From: Thermoplasmatota archaeon
GTDB taxonomy: Archaea; Thermoplasmatota; E2; UBA202; JdFR-43
Reading direction: 5' to 3'
Assembly: GCA_029259055.1 (NCBI GenBank)
Contig: JAPDJP010000017.1
Span: forward strand, 1-46,871
DNA length: 46,871 bases
This document shows positions 2,822 to 45,720 of the stretch, piece by piece. The notes under the pieces were generated by a model. That model saw only the letters and a program-made list of their open reading frames with translations. It was not told where the DNA came from and searched no databases. How positions within the stretch are numbered: position 1 is the stretch's first letter; each line of letters begins with the position of its first letter. A program made the translations under genes and the position numbers.

Positions 2822-4536
2822 TAATATTCTCCTATTGCTTTTTGTTCTCTATCTAAAGTTGAACCAATTTTATTTACCCTTGGTCTGTTACTTTCTTCAT
2901 CCCTCCTAAAAGTGATTCCTAAATCTTTTAGAAATAAGTTCATTCCCTCCCTCAAACTAAAAGGCCCTCTCGCAACCCCTTTTTTTCCTGGTATGCCTGA
3001 AAAAACCATTAAAGATTGGCTTACCATATCAATAAAATAAACATCATGTTCCACAACTAAAGCTGCCTTATTCTCCTTTTCCATAATTCTTCTTATTACT
3101 TTTGCAACTTTCATTCTCTGTTTAGCATCTAAATATGCAGATGGTTCATCAATTAGATATATATCTGCTTCAAGACTTAAAGAATAGGCTATTGCTACTG
3201 TTTGTAGCTCCCCTCCAGATAAATTCTTTAATTCATAGTCATAAAAATCCTTTATTCCTAAGGGATTAAGAATTTCCTTTTCATACAATAAATGAAATTT
3301 ATCCTTATTCTCTTCAAACAATTCTCTTACTGTTCCATTTCCAGCTTTAATATATTGTGGCTTATAACTAATCTTAACTTTTGCTTCAATATTCCCTTCA
3401 GTTGGCTCAATAACGCCCGCCAGCATTTTAACAAATGTTGTTTTTCCTATACCATTTGGGCCGACGACCCCTATAACTTCTCCCTTATAAATTTTTCCTT
3501 TTTCAACTACTAATTCAAAACCGTTATAACTTTTTCTTAAATTATCAAAAGAAATCAATGTTTCTCTTTCTCTTATTTCCCTTGGAGGATGTTTTTCAAA
3601 CTTAATTTCTTCTCCAAATCTAACATTCTCCTCCTTTAAATATCCAGAAAGATATAAATTGATACCATGCCTAACTGTTTTCGCTCCAGCAACAATTCCA
3701 TAAACTCCTTTTTTTCCATATAGTATGTGAATAATATCTGCCAGAAAATCTAAAACAGCTAAGTCATGTTCAACAACTACAACCATTTTGTTTTCCGCTA
3801 ACTCCCTTATTTTTTTAGCCATTTCCAGCCTATTCCTGATATCCAAATAGGAAGAAGGCTCATCAAAAAAGTATATATCTGCTGGTTTTTCCATGGCAAC
3901 GGTAATCGCAATTTTTTGTAATTCTCCTCCTGATATTTCATTCATTTTTTTATCCATTAATTCTTCCAGCCCTTCTCCCTTTACCCCCATTTCATCAATA
4001 AATTCTTCCACCCTCCCCTTATATAAAGACAACTTATCGATATACTGTGGTTTAAAAGAGATTTTTATATTTTCATTTGCTATTTCTCTAAAAAAATTCG
4101 CTAATTCTGTTCCTCTCCACTCTTCAATTATATCATCCCAAGTTGGTTCTTTTTCTATCCTTCCTAAATTTGGTTTTAATTTGCCAGACAAAATTTTTAA
4201 TGCAGTAGTTTTTCCTATTCCATTTTCTCCTAATAAACCAACAACTTTCCCTCTTTTTGGTAACGGTAACCTAAACAATCTAAAACCATTTTTTCCGTAT
4301 TGATGAATAACTTCCTCATGTAATTCCTCTGGTAAGTTTTCAATATGTATTGCTTTAAAAGGGCACTTATGAACACATATTCCACATCCAACACACAGTT
4401 CTTCTGATATTGTTGGCTTCTCTTCCTCCATAACTATTGCTTCAACCCCTCCTCTAACACGAGGACAATATTTAATGCATTCCAATGAACATTTTTTTGG
4501 CTGGCATCTATCCTTATTTAATACCGCAACCCTCAT
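2809..4536 (-). CDS. ribosome-recycling ATPase ABCE1 (RLI)
   Basis: ABCE1 splits ribosomes into subunits after termination. The protein (575 aa) has the diagnostic N-terminal iron-sulfur domain with eight cysteines (C11, C16, C20, C24, C48, C51, C54, C58) for two [4Fe-4S] clusters, then two ABC ATPase domains. NBD1 shows Walker A GENGIGKTT, signature SGGELQK, Walker B IYFFDEPSSYLD and H-loop VEHD; NBD2 shows GPNGIGKTT, LSGGELQT, IYLIDEPSAYLD and VEHD. The C-terminus (DREQKAIGEYYYEL) fits the family. Its ATG overlaps the stop of the upstream CoA-ligase gene by 4 nt (ATGA), so the two are co-transcribed and probably translationally coupled. Confidence 0.97.
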   Translation of the reverse strand: MRVAVLNKDRCQPKKCSLECIKYCPRVRGGVEAIVMEEEKPTISEELCVGCGICVHKCPFKAIHIENLPEELHEEVIHQYGKNGFRLFRLPLPKRGKVVGLLGENGIGKTTALKILSGKLKPNLGRIEKEPTWDDIIEEWRGTELANFFREIANENIKISFKPQYIDKLSLYKGRVEEFIDEMGVKGEGLEELMDKKMNEISGGELQKIAITVAMEKPADIYFFDEPSSYLDIRNRLEMAKKIRELAENKMVVVVEHDLAVLDFLADIIHILYGKKGVYGIVAGAKTVRHGINLYLSGYLKEENVRFGEEIKFEKHPPREIRERETLISFDNLRKSYNGFELVVEKGKIYKGEVIGVVGPNGIGKTTFVKMLAGVIEPTEGNIEAKVKISYKPQYIKAGNGTVRELFEENKDKFHLLYEKEILNPLGIKDFYDYELKNLSGGELQTVAIAYSLSLEADIYLIDEPSAYLDAKQRMKVAKVIRRIMEKENKAALVVEHDVYFIDMVSQSLMVFSGIPGKKGVARGPFSLREGMNLFLKDLGITFRRDEESNRPRVNKIGSTLDREQKAIGEYYYEL

Positions 4537-5777
4537 TTTATTTCTACAATTTTATCTATACAGTTTATTACATTTCTTGGCTCCTCAAACACTGGTATTT
4601 TTAATTTTAATAATTTTCTTTTTTGTCTTTCAACAAATCTTCCCCCTAATGTCAAAGCTAAATAAAATCTTTCTCTTTTTGCCAAACCATCATACAGTTT
4701 ATCCAAACTTTCTGCTAATGGAGCATCCTGAAAAACAAAAGTTAATAGTATAATATCTGCATTACATTCATCTATTGCATTCAAAAAATCATCAGCAGTT
4801 GCACTCCCTGTTAAATCTATGATGTCAGCAAGTTCAATATTCCTTGAATCCCCCAAAAAATCGCAAGCTAAAACGCTTGGCCCAGCACCATTTGTTATTA
4901 TTGCAAGTTTGTTTCCCTTAGGAAAACCATTTGTAGCCAATATTTTTATTATTCCAAAAAATTCCTCAAAATCATCAGCATAAATTATGTTTTTTTGTTT
5001 GCAAATCCCCTTAAAAATTTCATAATTTGTGGCCATTGCCCCAGTGTGAAGTGCTGCCGCCTTCTGCCCCAACTCGTTCCTCCCAGCTTTTAATACTATA
5101 ATTGGCTTTTTATGACGTATTTCAAAAAATTTTCTGCCAACTTCTTCAATATACATTGCTATTATTTCTGTTTCCTTGTCTCTTTCTAAAAATTTGATTA
5201 AATCAATTTCATTTATATCTGCCTTATTGCCATAAGAAACAAACTTGCTTACACCGATTCCCTCGCTTGCCAATTTTTCCAATAAAGCTATCCCGAATGT
5301 GCCAGATTGTGTTAGAATCGCAACTTTTCCATATGAAGGAAGTTCCATATTTTTTTGAAAAAATGTATTGAATTTATTCTTCCCATTAAAAACACCAATG
5401 CAATTTGGACCAATTATTCTAATTCCATATTTTTTTGCTATTTCTACCAATTTTTCTTCAAGCTCTTTATTTCCTACTTCTTTAAATCCCCCTGATATTA
5501 TTACAATTCTTCTTATACCCTTTTCTCCACATTTTTCTAATTCATCAATGCATTTTTTTGCATCGATTGCAATTACAGCCAAATCAATTTCATCTTCTAT
5601 TTCCCTTATATCTTTATAGCATTTTCTTCCCAATATTTTCTTCCTTTTTGGATTTATTGGATAAACTTTTATATTGCTTTTCAAAATATTCCTAAAAATT
5701 TCATAACCTATTTTTCCTTTTGTGCTAGATGCTCCTATTAATGCCACGTTTTTTGGAGTAAAGAATCCATCAAGCAT
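4533..5777 (-). CDS. ADP-forming acyl/acetyl-CoA synthetase, alpha subunit
   Basis: This 414-aa protein has a Rossmann CoA-binding domain (start FTPKNVALIGASSTKGKIG), a succinyl-CoA-ligase-like domain with IIGPNCIGVFN and LTQSGTFG, and the HTGAM segment holding the histidine that is phosphorylated in ADP-forming acyl-CoA synthetases. These enzymes turn acyl-CoA + ADP + Pi into acid + CoA + ATP, the archaeal way to gain ATP from acetyl-CoA. No ATP-grasp beta subunit is present here, so the partner must be encoded elsewhere. It is a little shorter than Pyrococcus alpha subunits (about 460 aa, from memory). It sits 3 nt after the PRC-barrel gene, with GAGG before the ATG, and overlaps ABCE1 by 4 nt. 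The substrate cannot be told from sequence. Confidence 0.85.
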   Translation of the reverse strand: MLDGFFTPKNVALIGASSTKGKIGYEIFRNILKSNIKVYPINPKRKKILGRKCYKDIREIEDEIDLAVIAIDAKKCIDELEKCGEKGIRRIVIISGGFKEVGNKELEEKLVEIAKKYGIRIIGPNCIGVFNGKNKFNTFFQKNMELPSYGKVAILTQSGTFGIALLEKLASEGIGVSKFVSYGNKADINEIDLIKFLERDKETEIIAMYIEEVGRKFFEIRHKKPIIVLKAGRNELGQKAAALHTGAMATNYEIFKGICKQKNIIYADDFEEFFGIIKILATNGFPKGNKLAIITNGAGPSVLACDFLGDSRNIELADIIDLTGSATADDFLNAIDECNADIILLTFVFQDAPLAESLDKLYDGLAKRERFYLALTLGGRFVERQKRKLLKLKIPVFEEPRNVINCIDKIVEIK

Positions 5778-22496: not shown

Positions 22497-24410
22497 CTAA
22501 GATTTCCCTATCGCTTCCTTAATTTCTTCAACAACTTCCGGATTTCTAAGTGTTGTCAAATCCCCAAGCTCTTCTTTTCCTTCTGCAATATTTCTCAATA
22601 TCCTTCTCATTATTTTCCCGCTTCTTGTTTTCGGTAAATCACTCACAAAAATTATTTCATCTGGCTTTGCAGTTGGCCCAATTACTTTTGCGACATGTTT
22701 CTTTAATTCTTCTTTTAATTCATCACTTGCTTCATATCCTTCTTTTAGAACAACATATGCCAAAGGAACCTGACCCTTTATTTCGTGAGGCTTACCAACT
22801 ACAGCCGACTCTGCCACCGCTGGATGGCTTACCAAAGCGCTCTCTACTTCAGCTGTTCCCAAACGATGACCAGCAACATTTAGAACATCTCCTATTCTTC
22901 CAAGTAGCCAGAAGTAACCATCTTCATCAATCATTGCTCCATCTCCCGTATAAAATTTGTCATAGCCATATTTACTCCAGTATTCCTCAATATACTTGTC
23001 ATGTGCTTTATACAATCCTCTCAGCATGGAAGGCCATGGTCTTGTAATAACTAATTCTCCTTTTTGACCGGGAGGACATATTCCATTTTCGTCTCTTACT
23101 TCTGCTTTTAACCCTGGGAAAGGAAATGTTGCGGAGCCGGGCTTTAATTTTGTTATGCCAGGCAATGGAGTTATTAAAATCATGCCTGTCTCAGTCATCC
23201 ACCATGTATCAACTATTGGACACCTTTCCTTTCCTATAACCCTATAATACCATAACCAGGCTTCAGGATTAATAGGTTCTCCAACGCTCCCCAATAGTCT
23301 TAGACTGCTTAAATCATGCATATTTGGCCATTTCTCTCCCCATTTCATTGCCATTCTAATAGCGGTTGGGGCGGTATAAAAAATTGTTACCTTGTATTTT
23401 TCAACGATTTCCCACCATCTTGCTGGTGTTGGATAATCAGGTGCACCTTCATACATTATTCCAGTTACATTGTTTGCTAGAGGTCCATAAACAATATAGC
23501 TATGACCAGTTATCCATCCTATGTCGGCGGTGCACCAATAAATATCATCATCTTTTACATCAAAAATCCATTTCATTGTTGTGGCAACCCCTACCATATA
23601 GCCACCAGTAGTATGCATCACGCCTTTTGGCTTTCCTGTTGTTCCAGAAGTATACATTAGGAAAAGCAAGTCTTCGGCATCCATTATTTCTGGCTCACAT
23701 TCTGTTGGCATGTCCTTGACTAAATCATCCCACCATATATCCCTTCCTTCCTTCATATTAATATCATTTCCAGCTCTTCTAACAACAATTACTTTTTCAA
23801 CGTCTAAATTTTTCAATCCCTCATCCGTTTTTTCTTTATGATTTAAAATTTTTCCTCTTCTATAATAGCCATCGCACGTAATAATATATTTTGCCCCAGC
23901 ATCCTCAACCCTGTCTTTAAAAGCTTCTGCACTAAATCCAGCGAAAATGACGGAATGAGGCGCCCCTATTCTGGCGCATGCCAGCATAGCTATGGGTAAT
24001 TCAGGAATCATTGGTAGATATATGGATACGATATCACCCTTTTTCACTCCTATACTTTTTAAGGCATTTGCGAATTTGCAAACTTCTTCATATAACTGCT
24101 TATAGGTTAATTTTCTAACTTCTCCATCTTCTCCTTCCCAAATATATGCTATTTTATCTCCCTTACCCCTTTCAATCCATCTATCTAAACAATTATAAGA
24201 AGCATTTAATTTTCCGTTTATAAACCATTTATAATAAGGAGGATTGGCTTCAAGAACTTTATCCCATTTTTTATACCAATCAATCATTTCTTCTGCTCTT
24301 TTTTCCCAGAATTTTATATAATCCTCTCCTTCCTTATAAACGCTCTCATCTTTTATCCATGCTTTCTTTCTAAATTCCTCTGGTGGTGGAAAAATTTGTG
24401 CCTCTTTCAT
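22497..24410 (-). CDS. acs: AMP-forming acetyl-CoA synthetase
   Basis: Activates acetate to acetyl-CoA via acetyl-AMP. The 637-aa protein carries the AMP-binding P-loop [18 protein letters not shown], the WWMTETGMI and [19 protein letters not shown] core motifs, and the C-terminal [10 protein letters not shown] with the conserved catalytic lysine that is regulated by acetylation in other species. The length matches the family. It is a single gene; the 117-nt gap upstream holds divergent promoters shared with the adenosine-specific kinase gene. With the ADP-forming synthetase subunit at 4533-5777, the cell seems able both to use acetate and to conserve energy from acetyl-CoA. Confidence 0.96.
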
Positions 24411-44595: not shown

Positions 44596-45720
44596 TTAAG
44601 AACCTTCAGCCAGCTTAATTGTTCTTCTTGCTTTTCTTTCTACAGGTAAATCGATCATCCTCCCATTTAAGGTAGCTACACCTCTCCCTTTTTTCTTTGC
44701 CTCTTCTATTGCTTCCAGTATTTTTCTTGCTTCTTTTATTTCTTCTTCTGTTGGTGAAAAACATTCATGAATTATTTCGATTTGACCTGGATGAATAGCC
44801 CCCTTACCATCAAAGCCCATTTCAACGATTCTCCTTGTTTCCTCTCTTAATCCATCCTCATCTTCAATATTTGGATAAACGGTATCCAAAGCTTGTATTC
44901 CTGCAGATTTTGCAGATATTAAGATTTCGAATCTGGGATAAATTAAGTTTTCCCAGTTTCTTTTTCCTCCAACATCTCTTGTATAATCTTCTGCTCCGAA
45001 AGCAATGGCGACAAGCTTATCACTTGCTTTAGCAATTTCCCTTGCATTTGCTATTCCTTTCGCTGTTTCTATTATTGGCATTAGATGACAATCTAAATTA
45101 ACTTCTTCTAGAATTTTTTCAATAACTTTTATATCTTCAACGCTCTCCACTTTTGGAATACAAATTCCGTGAGGGCTACCATATGATATTAAATTTATAT
45201 CATCTCTTGCCATCTCTTTATTTATTCTAACCCATATTTCCGCTTTGCCAAAATCCATTTCCTTTAAAGCATTTTTTACTAGATAACGAGCATCTTGCTT
45301 ATGTTCCATTATAACAGAATCTTCTAAATCTAAAATTGTGCAATCGCAACCATAAACAGCTACACTATTGATAAAGCGGGGATTATTTCCAGGAACGTAT
45401 AATCTACTTCTTCTTAACCTATCTTTAGAGGTTTTCCCCCTCCTAATTTTTTTATCTGGTAAATCAACGCCTAAAGCTTTTGCTATCGCTGATTCTAAAC
45501 GCGAGATTATTACATAATCTATTGCCCCAAATTCTTCTATTTCAACATCCGCCTGTACATCTAATTCTTCCATTCTTTTTCTGACGATTTCTTCAATATG
45601 TTCTTCAAATAAACCTTTTGTTTTACTCTTTATAAGAATATTCCCTTCTCCTTCCTTAACCTTTACCAAACAATCTCTCTCATTTGTTGTTCCAGCAAAA
45701 TATTCCCCAACGATTTTCAT
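44596..45720 (-). CDS. fused citrate lyase acyl-carrier (CitD) and beta subunit (CitE), carrier serine missing
   Basis: A 374-aa fusion. Residues 1-88 match CitD, the acyl-carrier subunit (AGT near residue 10, then the late EEFGAIDYVIISRLESAIA), and residues ~100-374 match CitE, the citryl/citramalyl lyase (RSRLYVPGNNPRFI, ILDLEDSV, WVRINKE, PIIETAKGIANAREIA, FGAEDYTRDVGG, GFDGKGAIHPGQIE). In Klebsiella CitD, Ser14 in AGTLESSD carries the phosphoribosyl-dephospho-CoA arm. Here the equivalent residue, also number 14, is Glu in AGTTNERD. The carrier arm therefore cannot be attached as known, and the enzyme may use free CoA esters. It overlaps the HD gene by 4 nt with GGGGAGG before the ATG. CitF is 3 kb upstream by coordinate on the same strand's neighbouring unit. 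Confidence 0.88.
   Translation of the reverse strand: MKIVGEYFAGTTNERDCLVKVKEGEGNILIKSKTKGLFEEHIEEIVRKRMEELDVQADVEIEEFGAIDYVIISRLESAIAKALGVDLPDKKIRRGKTSKDRLRRSRLYVPGNNPRFINSVAVYGCDCTILDLEDSVIMEHKQDARYLVKNALKEMDFGKAEIWVRINKEMARDDINLISYGSPHGICIPKVESVEDIKVIEKILEEVNLDCHLMPIIETAKGIANAREIAKASDKLVAIAFGAEDYTRDVGGKRNWENLIYPRFEILISAKSAGIQALDTVYPNIEDEDGLREETRRIVEMGFDGKGAIHPGQIEIIHECFSPTEEEIKEARKILEAIEEAKKKGRGVATLNGRMIDLPVERKARRTIKLAEGS

Follow-up and report, generated by a model that had tools for sequence, protein, structure and literature searches.

A CitD-CitE fusion without the prosthetic-group serine in a Thermoplasmatota archaeon, and a probable citrate-lyase-type enzyme working on free coenzyme A esters

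Introduction

Citrate lyase is the textbook example of enzymes that rely on a purpose-built carrier arm of their own; in its canonical form the arm is a derivative of 3'-dephospho-CoA. In the ATP-independent CitDEF enzyme of enterobacteria and lactic acid bacteria, encoded in citCDEFXG operons, this arm sits on a serine of CitD. The citramalate lyase of clostridial glutamate fermenters, as in Peptoclostridium acidaminophilum (L189), follows the same three-subunit plan and chemistry. Unlike the archaeal CitD described here, its CitD retains Ser14; citX, citC and genes for methylaspartate mutase are found nearby.

Several related enzymes work with free CoA esters. MdcC, the carrier of malonate decarboxylase, also belongs to the CitD family (PF06857) and bears its arm on Ser25, at the tip of an inter-strand loop, which brings the transferase site within the arm's reach, and the MdcD-MdcE part of that enzyme also acts on malonyl-CoA (PMC5534430). 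MdcC has its serine and the loading enzymes MdcB and MdcG, in contrast to archaeal CitD. Free acyl-CoA is also what serves those CitE-like enzymes that have been characterised from outside the cit operon (PMC3832036). Human CLYBL, malyl-CoA lyase and the citramalyl-CoA lyase RipC are likewise users of free acyl-CoA, and have neither a CitD nor a CitF partner. Citryl-CoA lyase, which has the citrate-synthase fold and takes part in two-enzyme citrate cleavage, would split the same citryl-CoA as CitDE, to whose fold it is unrelated.

The locus analysed here lies on a contig of a Thermoplasmatota archaeon (GCA_029259055.1, JAPDJP010000017.1), taken over its whole 46,871 nucleotides and referred to as the window. 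It shares with bacterial CitDEF homologous CitD, CitE and CitF, the catalytic residues of CitE, and the CitD fold with its flanking residues, but differs in that Ser14 is missing, citX and citG were not found, and CitD is fused to CitE. In place of the citC, citX and citG that stand beside bacterial CitDEF, the archaeal partners are an HD-domain protein, a LeuC-type hydro-lyase and a (homo)isocitrate-type dehydrogenase.

Results

The original prediction read the gene as a CitD-CitE fusion with Glu at position 14 within AGTTNERD, and both points hold: residues 8-81 of the 374-residue protein match the ACP/CitD family (Pfam PF06857, 50.6 bits, cut-off 25.1), residues 104-311 match the HpcH_HpaI/CitE family (PF03328, 171 bits), and the translation, which starts MKIVGEYFAGTTNERDCLV, has Glu as residue 14 (Table 1). 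The fusion stays below the NCBIfam equivalog cut-offs for both citD (42.5 against 63.5) and citE (277.5 bits against 443.4). Though under that cut-off, the CitE part is of the CitE lineage, and it scores higher with the citE model than with RipC (206 bits). An AlphaFold2 model of the fusion has a mean pLDDT of 92.6, about 90 over the CitD domain, and its closest folds in the PDB belong to CoA-ester lyases, among them malyl-CoA lyase and CoA-bound CLYBL; these two and RipC are the best structural or PDB sequence matches of the CitE part. The CitD domain by itself, used as query against the PDB sequences, gave no true relative. The catalytic residues of CitE, i.e. R165 (VRIN), E218 (IIETA) and D245 (GAEDY), align with those of E. 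coli CitE and of CLYBL and CoA-ester lyases. When 14 fusions of the order are compared in pairs, identity averages 59% for CitD and 72% for CitE; the CitD domain changes faster than CitE, yet is far from decayed. The N-terminal part is of the CitD family by fold and is without the defining feature of an acyl carrier protein, therefore this name should not apply to it, and the annotation 'citrate lyase acyl carrier protein' is misleading for these archaeal CitD genes.

Table 1. Features of the citrate-lyase-type locus, in coordinates of the window
Feature	Length	Coordinates	Strand	Remarks
CitD-CitE fusion	374 aa	44596..45720	-	CitD about residues 1-87, linker about 88-101, CitE about 102-372
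Codons 9-16 of the fusion (AGTTNERD)		45673..45696	-	Codon 14 = 45679-45681, Glu versus the arm-bearing Ser in bacterial CitD
CitF (citrate lyase alpha / family II CoA or ACP transferase)	510 aa	41016..42548	-	PF04223, 551 bits
HD-domain protein	170 aa	45717..46229	-	PF01966, 48 bits; 4-bp overlap with CitDE start
LeuC2, large subunit of aconitase/homoaconitase/isopropylmalate-isomerase family hydro-lyase	392 aa	39841..41019	-	4-bp overlap with CitF

A CitD domain is present in 20 of the 22 genomes of the order, and 44 of the 390 genomes sampled from the phylum have one. With G084, G090 and G102 left out of these 44, the comparison comprised 40 distinct archaeal CitDs with a readable loop, set against 12 bacterial controls from cit loci, which include one citramalate lyase and which, where annotated, mostly adjoin citX and/or citG. 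Ser14 is found in all 12 bacterial CitDs, e.g. in AGTLESGD of E. coli and in AGTLESSD of K. pneumoniae, the latter agreeing with the Klebsiella motif quoted in the original prediction. An alignment of archaeal CitD domains had been suggested as a check, and here none of the 40, fusions included, carries Ser14, the residue being absent from fused CitDEs and separate CitD genes alike. Position 14 is occupied by Lys (22), Glu (7), Arg (6), Ala (2), Pro, Gln or Asn (1 each); in the complete single-contig genomes G070 (1,486,778 bp) and G096 the loop reads AGTHEKGD and AGTREKGD, respectively, in place of AGTLESGD. The surrounding positions are kept, with G10, D16 and R78 in 40/40 and Thr/Ser11 in 38/40 archaeal CitDs, G10 and D16 being invariant in both the bacterial and archaeal sets, and no newly invariant nucleophile substitutes for Ser14 among the 40. 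On these alignments the loss of Ser14 is real, reproducible and, within the sample, phylum-wide. The Glu of the present fusion is thus one case of a general loss: that the serine is gone stands as predicted, while Glu is not the rule, since the residue is mostly Lys and varies over the phylum.

Two candidates for a true, Ser-bearing carrier were ruled out, namely a second CitD with Ser14, as the genome has a single PF06857 match, and the unfused CitDs of relatives, which also lack the serine. No publication on a Ser-less CitD was found in a literature search that reached little of the subscription literature. Two further positions separate the sets (E. coli numbering): Cys73, present in 12/12 bacterial CitDs, is aromatic in 39/40 archaeal ones, and a Lys has been gained at position 36 in 36/40 archaeal CitDs.

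Concerning the genes for arm synthesis and loading, none of citC, citG and citX occurs among the window proteins scanned, as the original prediction had stated for the vicinity. It also called for a genome-wide search for citG and citX, and neither was found in the archaeon's assembly, which is about 92% complete. CitG (PF01874) and CitX (PF03802) are each absent from all 41 genomes formed by the archaeon and its 40 nearest relatives, E. coli being positive as control; such MAG-based absence can be incomplete. CitG is also missing in 22 of 24 further CitD-bearing genomes, and the CitX search covered 22 of the 44 CitD-bearing genomes. The exceptions, G045 and G056, possess a CitG homologue, yet have Lys at CitD position 14; as CitG homologues occur in archaeal control genomes too, their presence in these two is no proof of an arm. 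The absence of a covalent arm at position 14 is strongly supported at the sequence level.

The loop in question, residues 11-15, lies between two strands in the AlphaFold2 model, where MdcC has its arm-bearing serine. Lys or Arg is found at position 14 or 15 in 39 of the 40 archaeal CitDs, compared with SS or SG at 14-15 in the bacterial ones, and the two positions stand in for each other (KG, KR, RE, ER, AR, PR, QR, EK etc.; Fisher p 2.4e-4, uncorrected for common ancestry). The sole CitD without a basic tip is the decayed fusion of G014. Because the canonical arm lacks it, an enzyme working with free CoA must fit an extra 3'-phosphate near the loop tip, and we propose that the basic tip contacts free CoA. 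Its near-universal presence means that CitD may grip free CoA and is not an inert scaffold, and together with the conservation of the domain it suggests an active, non-covalent role. The original prediction had the carrier domain kept as a structural part; its retention is confirmed, but a purely structural role is doubtful in view of the conserved domain and the basic residue.

CitF, given as present in the original prediction, is encoded in the window and exceeds the NCBIfam citF equivalog cut-off (TIGR01584, 618.8 bits against 501.5), aligning over its length with the solved relatives 2hj0 and 1xr4. In a tree the CitFs of the phylum split from bacterial ACP-type CitFs with support 99/97, which is consistent with a different mode of use without proving it. 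All intact full-length fusions read from the order are directly preceded by the HD gene, in most cases with an overlap of 4 bp. The arrangement recurs in further genomes of the class, and the gene is missing beside the decayed copy. HD proteins are also found at L099:6303-6818, L134:4701-5213 and L105:2500-3081; in every case CitDE, CitF or LeuCD1 is a neighbour, and the putative metal-binding His/Asp residues are kept. The CitF-LeuC2 pair is retained in most of the order; two further contigs of the genome hold related parts, G000:C13 the small subunit matching LeuC2 along with a dehydrogenase that is nearest to (homo)isocitrate dehydrogenases, and G000:C21 a second hydro-lyase pair. Compared with its relatives in L099 and L164, the window's LeuC2 lacks about 25 residues in mid-protein, and this short form of 390-397 aa is common to the order.

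In two other genomes the scattered genes come together. The cluster of G045 comprises LeuC1-LeuD1-HD, CitD-CitE-CitF and LeuC2-LeuD2-dehydrogenase, and that of G014:C24 reads LeuC1-LeuD1-HD-CitF, then a 349-aa citryl-CoA-lyase-like protein, then LeuC2-LeuD2-dehydrogenase, without CitD or CitE. This protein, of citrate synthase fold, directly follows CitF, the two together spanning 6815-9274 of L099. Occupying the CitDE slot beside CitF, it is an apparent non-homologous replacement of CitDE: a splitter of free citryl-CoA, to go by its known relatives, in place of CitD and CitE together. CitF beside such a protein without any CitD fits work on free CoA esters. G014 also has a decayed CitDE (L038:13153-14262, the same as L027), in which the Asp of GAEDY is replaced and the LEDS motif, the basic tip and the HD neighbour are lost, and an orphan CitF persists on G014:C20 despite this decay.

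The phylum also has a second operon type, aconitase-CitD-CitE-CitF, with isocitrate dehydrogenase next in G014; Ser14 is missing from its CitDs too. In L030 (G001:C23) aconitase, CitD, CitE and CitF are joined by two ATP-citrate-lyase subunits, isocitrate dehydrogenase, a pyruvate-carboxylase-like biotin protein and a biotin ligase, two different citrate-splitting enzymes thus adjoining.

The archaeon's own genome has no match to the citrate synthase family (PF00285) and no homologue of citryl-CoA lyase, nor any match to the HMGL-like family (PF00682), which comprises LeuA, CimA, homocitrate synthase and Re-citrate synthase. The order has few PF00682 matches, and the ones that were inspected or could be assigned from their surroundings are pyruvate-carboxylase-like. 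With no synthase of either family found, CitF and CitDE are the only candidate for handling the carbon-carbon bond here.

Discussion

The locus probably encodes a citrate-lyase-type enzyme that is without a covalent arm and depends on CoA, CitF and CitE working on free CoA esters with CitD retained. With both Ser14 and the genes for making and loading the arm missing, the enzyme probably uses free coenzyme A, and judging from sequence this is the likeliest consequence of the missing arm. CitF, as a CoA transferase, would convert acetyl-CoA and citrate (or a close tri- or dicarboxylate) into citryl-CoA and acetate, and the CitE part, with Mg2+, would split citryl-CoA into oxaloacetate and acetyl-CoA; since CitE would regenerate it, acetyl-CoA would act as a freely diffusing catalytic carrier in place of the arm on CitD. 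CitD itself would tether CitF to CitE and hold the complex together, while the Lys/Arg of its loop tip, at the former arm site, would probably touch free CoA, e.g. at the 3'-phosphate; were tethering its only role, its retention would be odd. Because family II transferases proceed through a ternary complex with no covalent enzyme adduct (PMC5534430), and because CitE-like enzymes already use free acyl-CoA and MdcD-MdcE malonyl-CoA, the proposed step would be chemically conservative.

The LeuCD hydro-lyases and the (homo)isocitrate-type dehydrogenase would tie substrate or product to isocitrate-type chemistry. At millimolar concentrations citrate breakdown to acetate and oxaloacetate is favoured, and cleavage is thermodynamically the easier direction; a reductive route from 2-oxoglutarate through isocitrate and citrate to oxaloacetate and acetate would therefore be easier than synthesis. 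The larger picture, with a former citrate lyase as the CoA-dependent entry to or exit from an isocitrate-type pathway and its carrier domain as an electrostatic clamp on free CoA, in a lineage where neither citrate nor HMGL-type synthase was found, is speculative and, taken as a whole, unlikely.

Across the phylum sample the carrier domain has been kept, the attachment residue has been lost, and loading genes are missing from nearly all genomes tested for them. This would show how an arm can be abandoned or, if the Ser-less forms were the older ones, how it was acquired. It also offers a candidate route by which archaea without recognisable citrate synthase, LeuA-type or Re-type enzymes could make or break the carbon-carbon bond, and the complete genomes G070 and G096, with their Lys14 form, make the question directly testable.

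Several other readings of the missing serine were weighed. An artefact at codon 14, be it a wrong start, a frameshift or a sequencing error, has practically no chance of being right, since the same loss in 40 distinct CitDs from many genomes, the complete single-contig G070 and G096 included, excludes chance and sequencing error. The idea of a degenerating fusion devoid of lyase activity finds a precedent in the G014 copy, where the GAEDY Asp and the LEDS motif have gone; all other fusions keep their catalytic residues, the 72% identity in CitE, the HD operon overlap and a conserved CitF, which makes decay highly improbable. Somewhat more room is left for a hidden arm on another CitD residue, such as Cys17 or Thr11, modified by an unrelated loading system, although we regard it as quite unlikely. 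The CitD fold is retained in the model, Cys17 is present in 21/21 fused CitDs and Thr/Ser11 in nearly all archaeal ones; however, Cys17 occurs in just 6 of 19 separate CitDs, E. coli having Val there, Ser14-bearing bacteria also have Thr/Ser at 11, the otherwise intact fusion of G006 has Arg11, and citG was not found in the order. Since most separate CitDs lack it, Cys17 is ruled out as an acceptor that generally takes the place of Ser14.

A different question is whether the same CoA-dependent chemistry serves another substrate, the enzyme being a lyase or synthase of the citramalate, homocitrate or methylcitrate type that feeds both LeuCD hydro-lyases and the one dehydrogenase. This is possible, if the less likely case. 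G004 (L101) and G002 (L105) carry the CitF/LeuC pair together with aconitase, ATP-citrate lyase and a second dehydrogenase, so that the LeuCD set there may handle another acid, e.g. homocitrate. LeuC2 and the dehydrogenase match best, though under cut-off, with models of methanogen homoaconitase and homoisocitrate dehydrogenase, the dehydrogenase also matches Thermus homoisocitrate dehydrogenase (3asj), and the LeuD2 loop reads YLEI against YLVY or YLRT in characterised subunits. Against this, citrate is indicated by the citryl-CoA-lyase-like protein that stands in for CitDE in the same cluster, and the other CitDEF operon type adjoins aconitase and isocitrate dehydrogenase (L028, L030); for these two reasons citrate is the favoured candidate substrate of the proposed enzyme. 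For citramalate in particular, no methylaspartate ammonia-lyase was found over cut-off in the order, PF07476 giving weak sub-cut-off matches that are probably enolases, and the known glutamate-to-citramalate (methylaspartate) route therefore looks absent and was rejected.

The small subunits at L163:6511-7044 and L164:6424-6939 have YLEI and YLHI at the loop where solved subunits show YLVY (isopropylmalate/citramalate isomerase) or YLRT (homoaconitase). Elsewhere in the window, the reverse strand encodes two CoA-ligase-like proteins that would link acetate and acetyl-CoA. The one at 22497-24410 resembles AMP-forming acetyl-CoA synthetase; the other, at 4533-5777, is a succinyl-CoA-ligase-like/CoA-binding subunit that possibly belongs to an ADP-forming acetyl-CoA synthetase.
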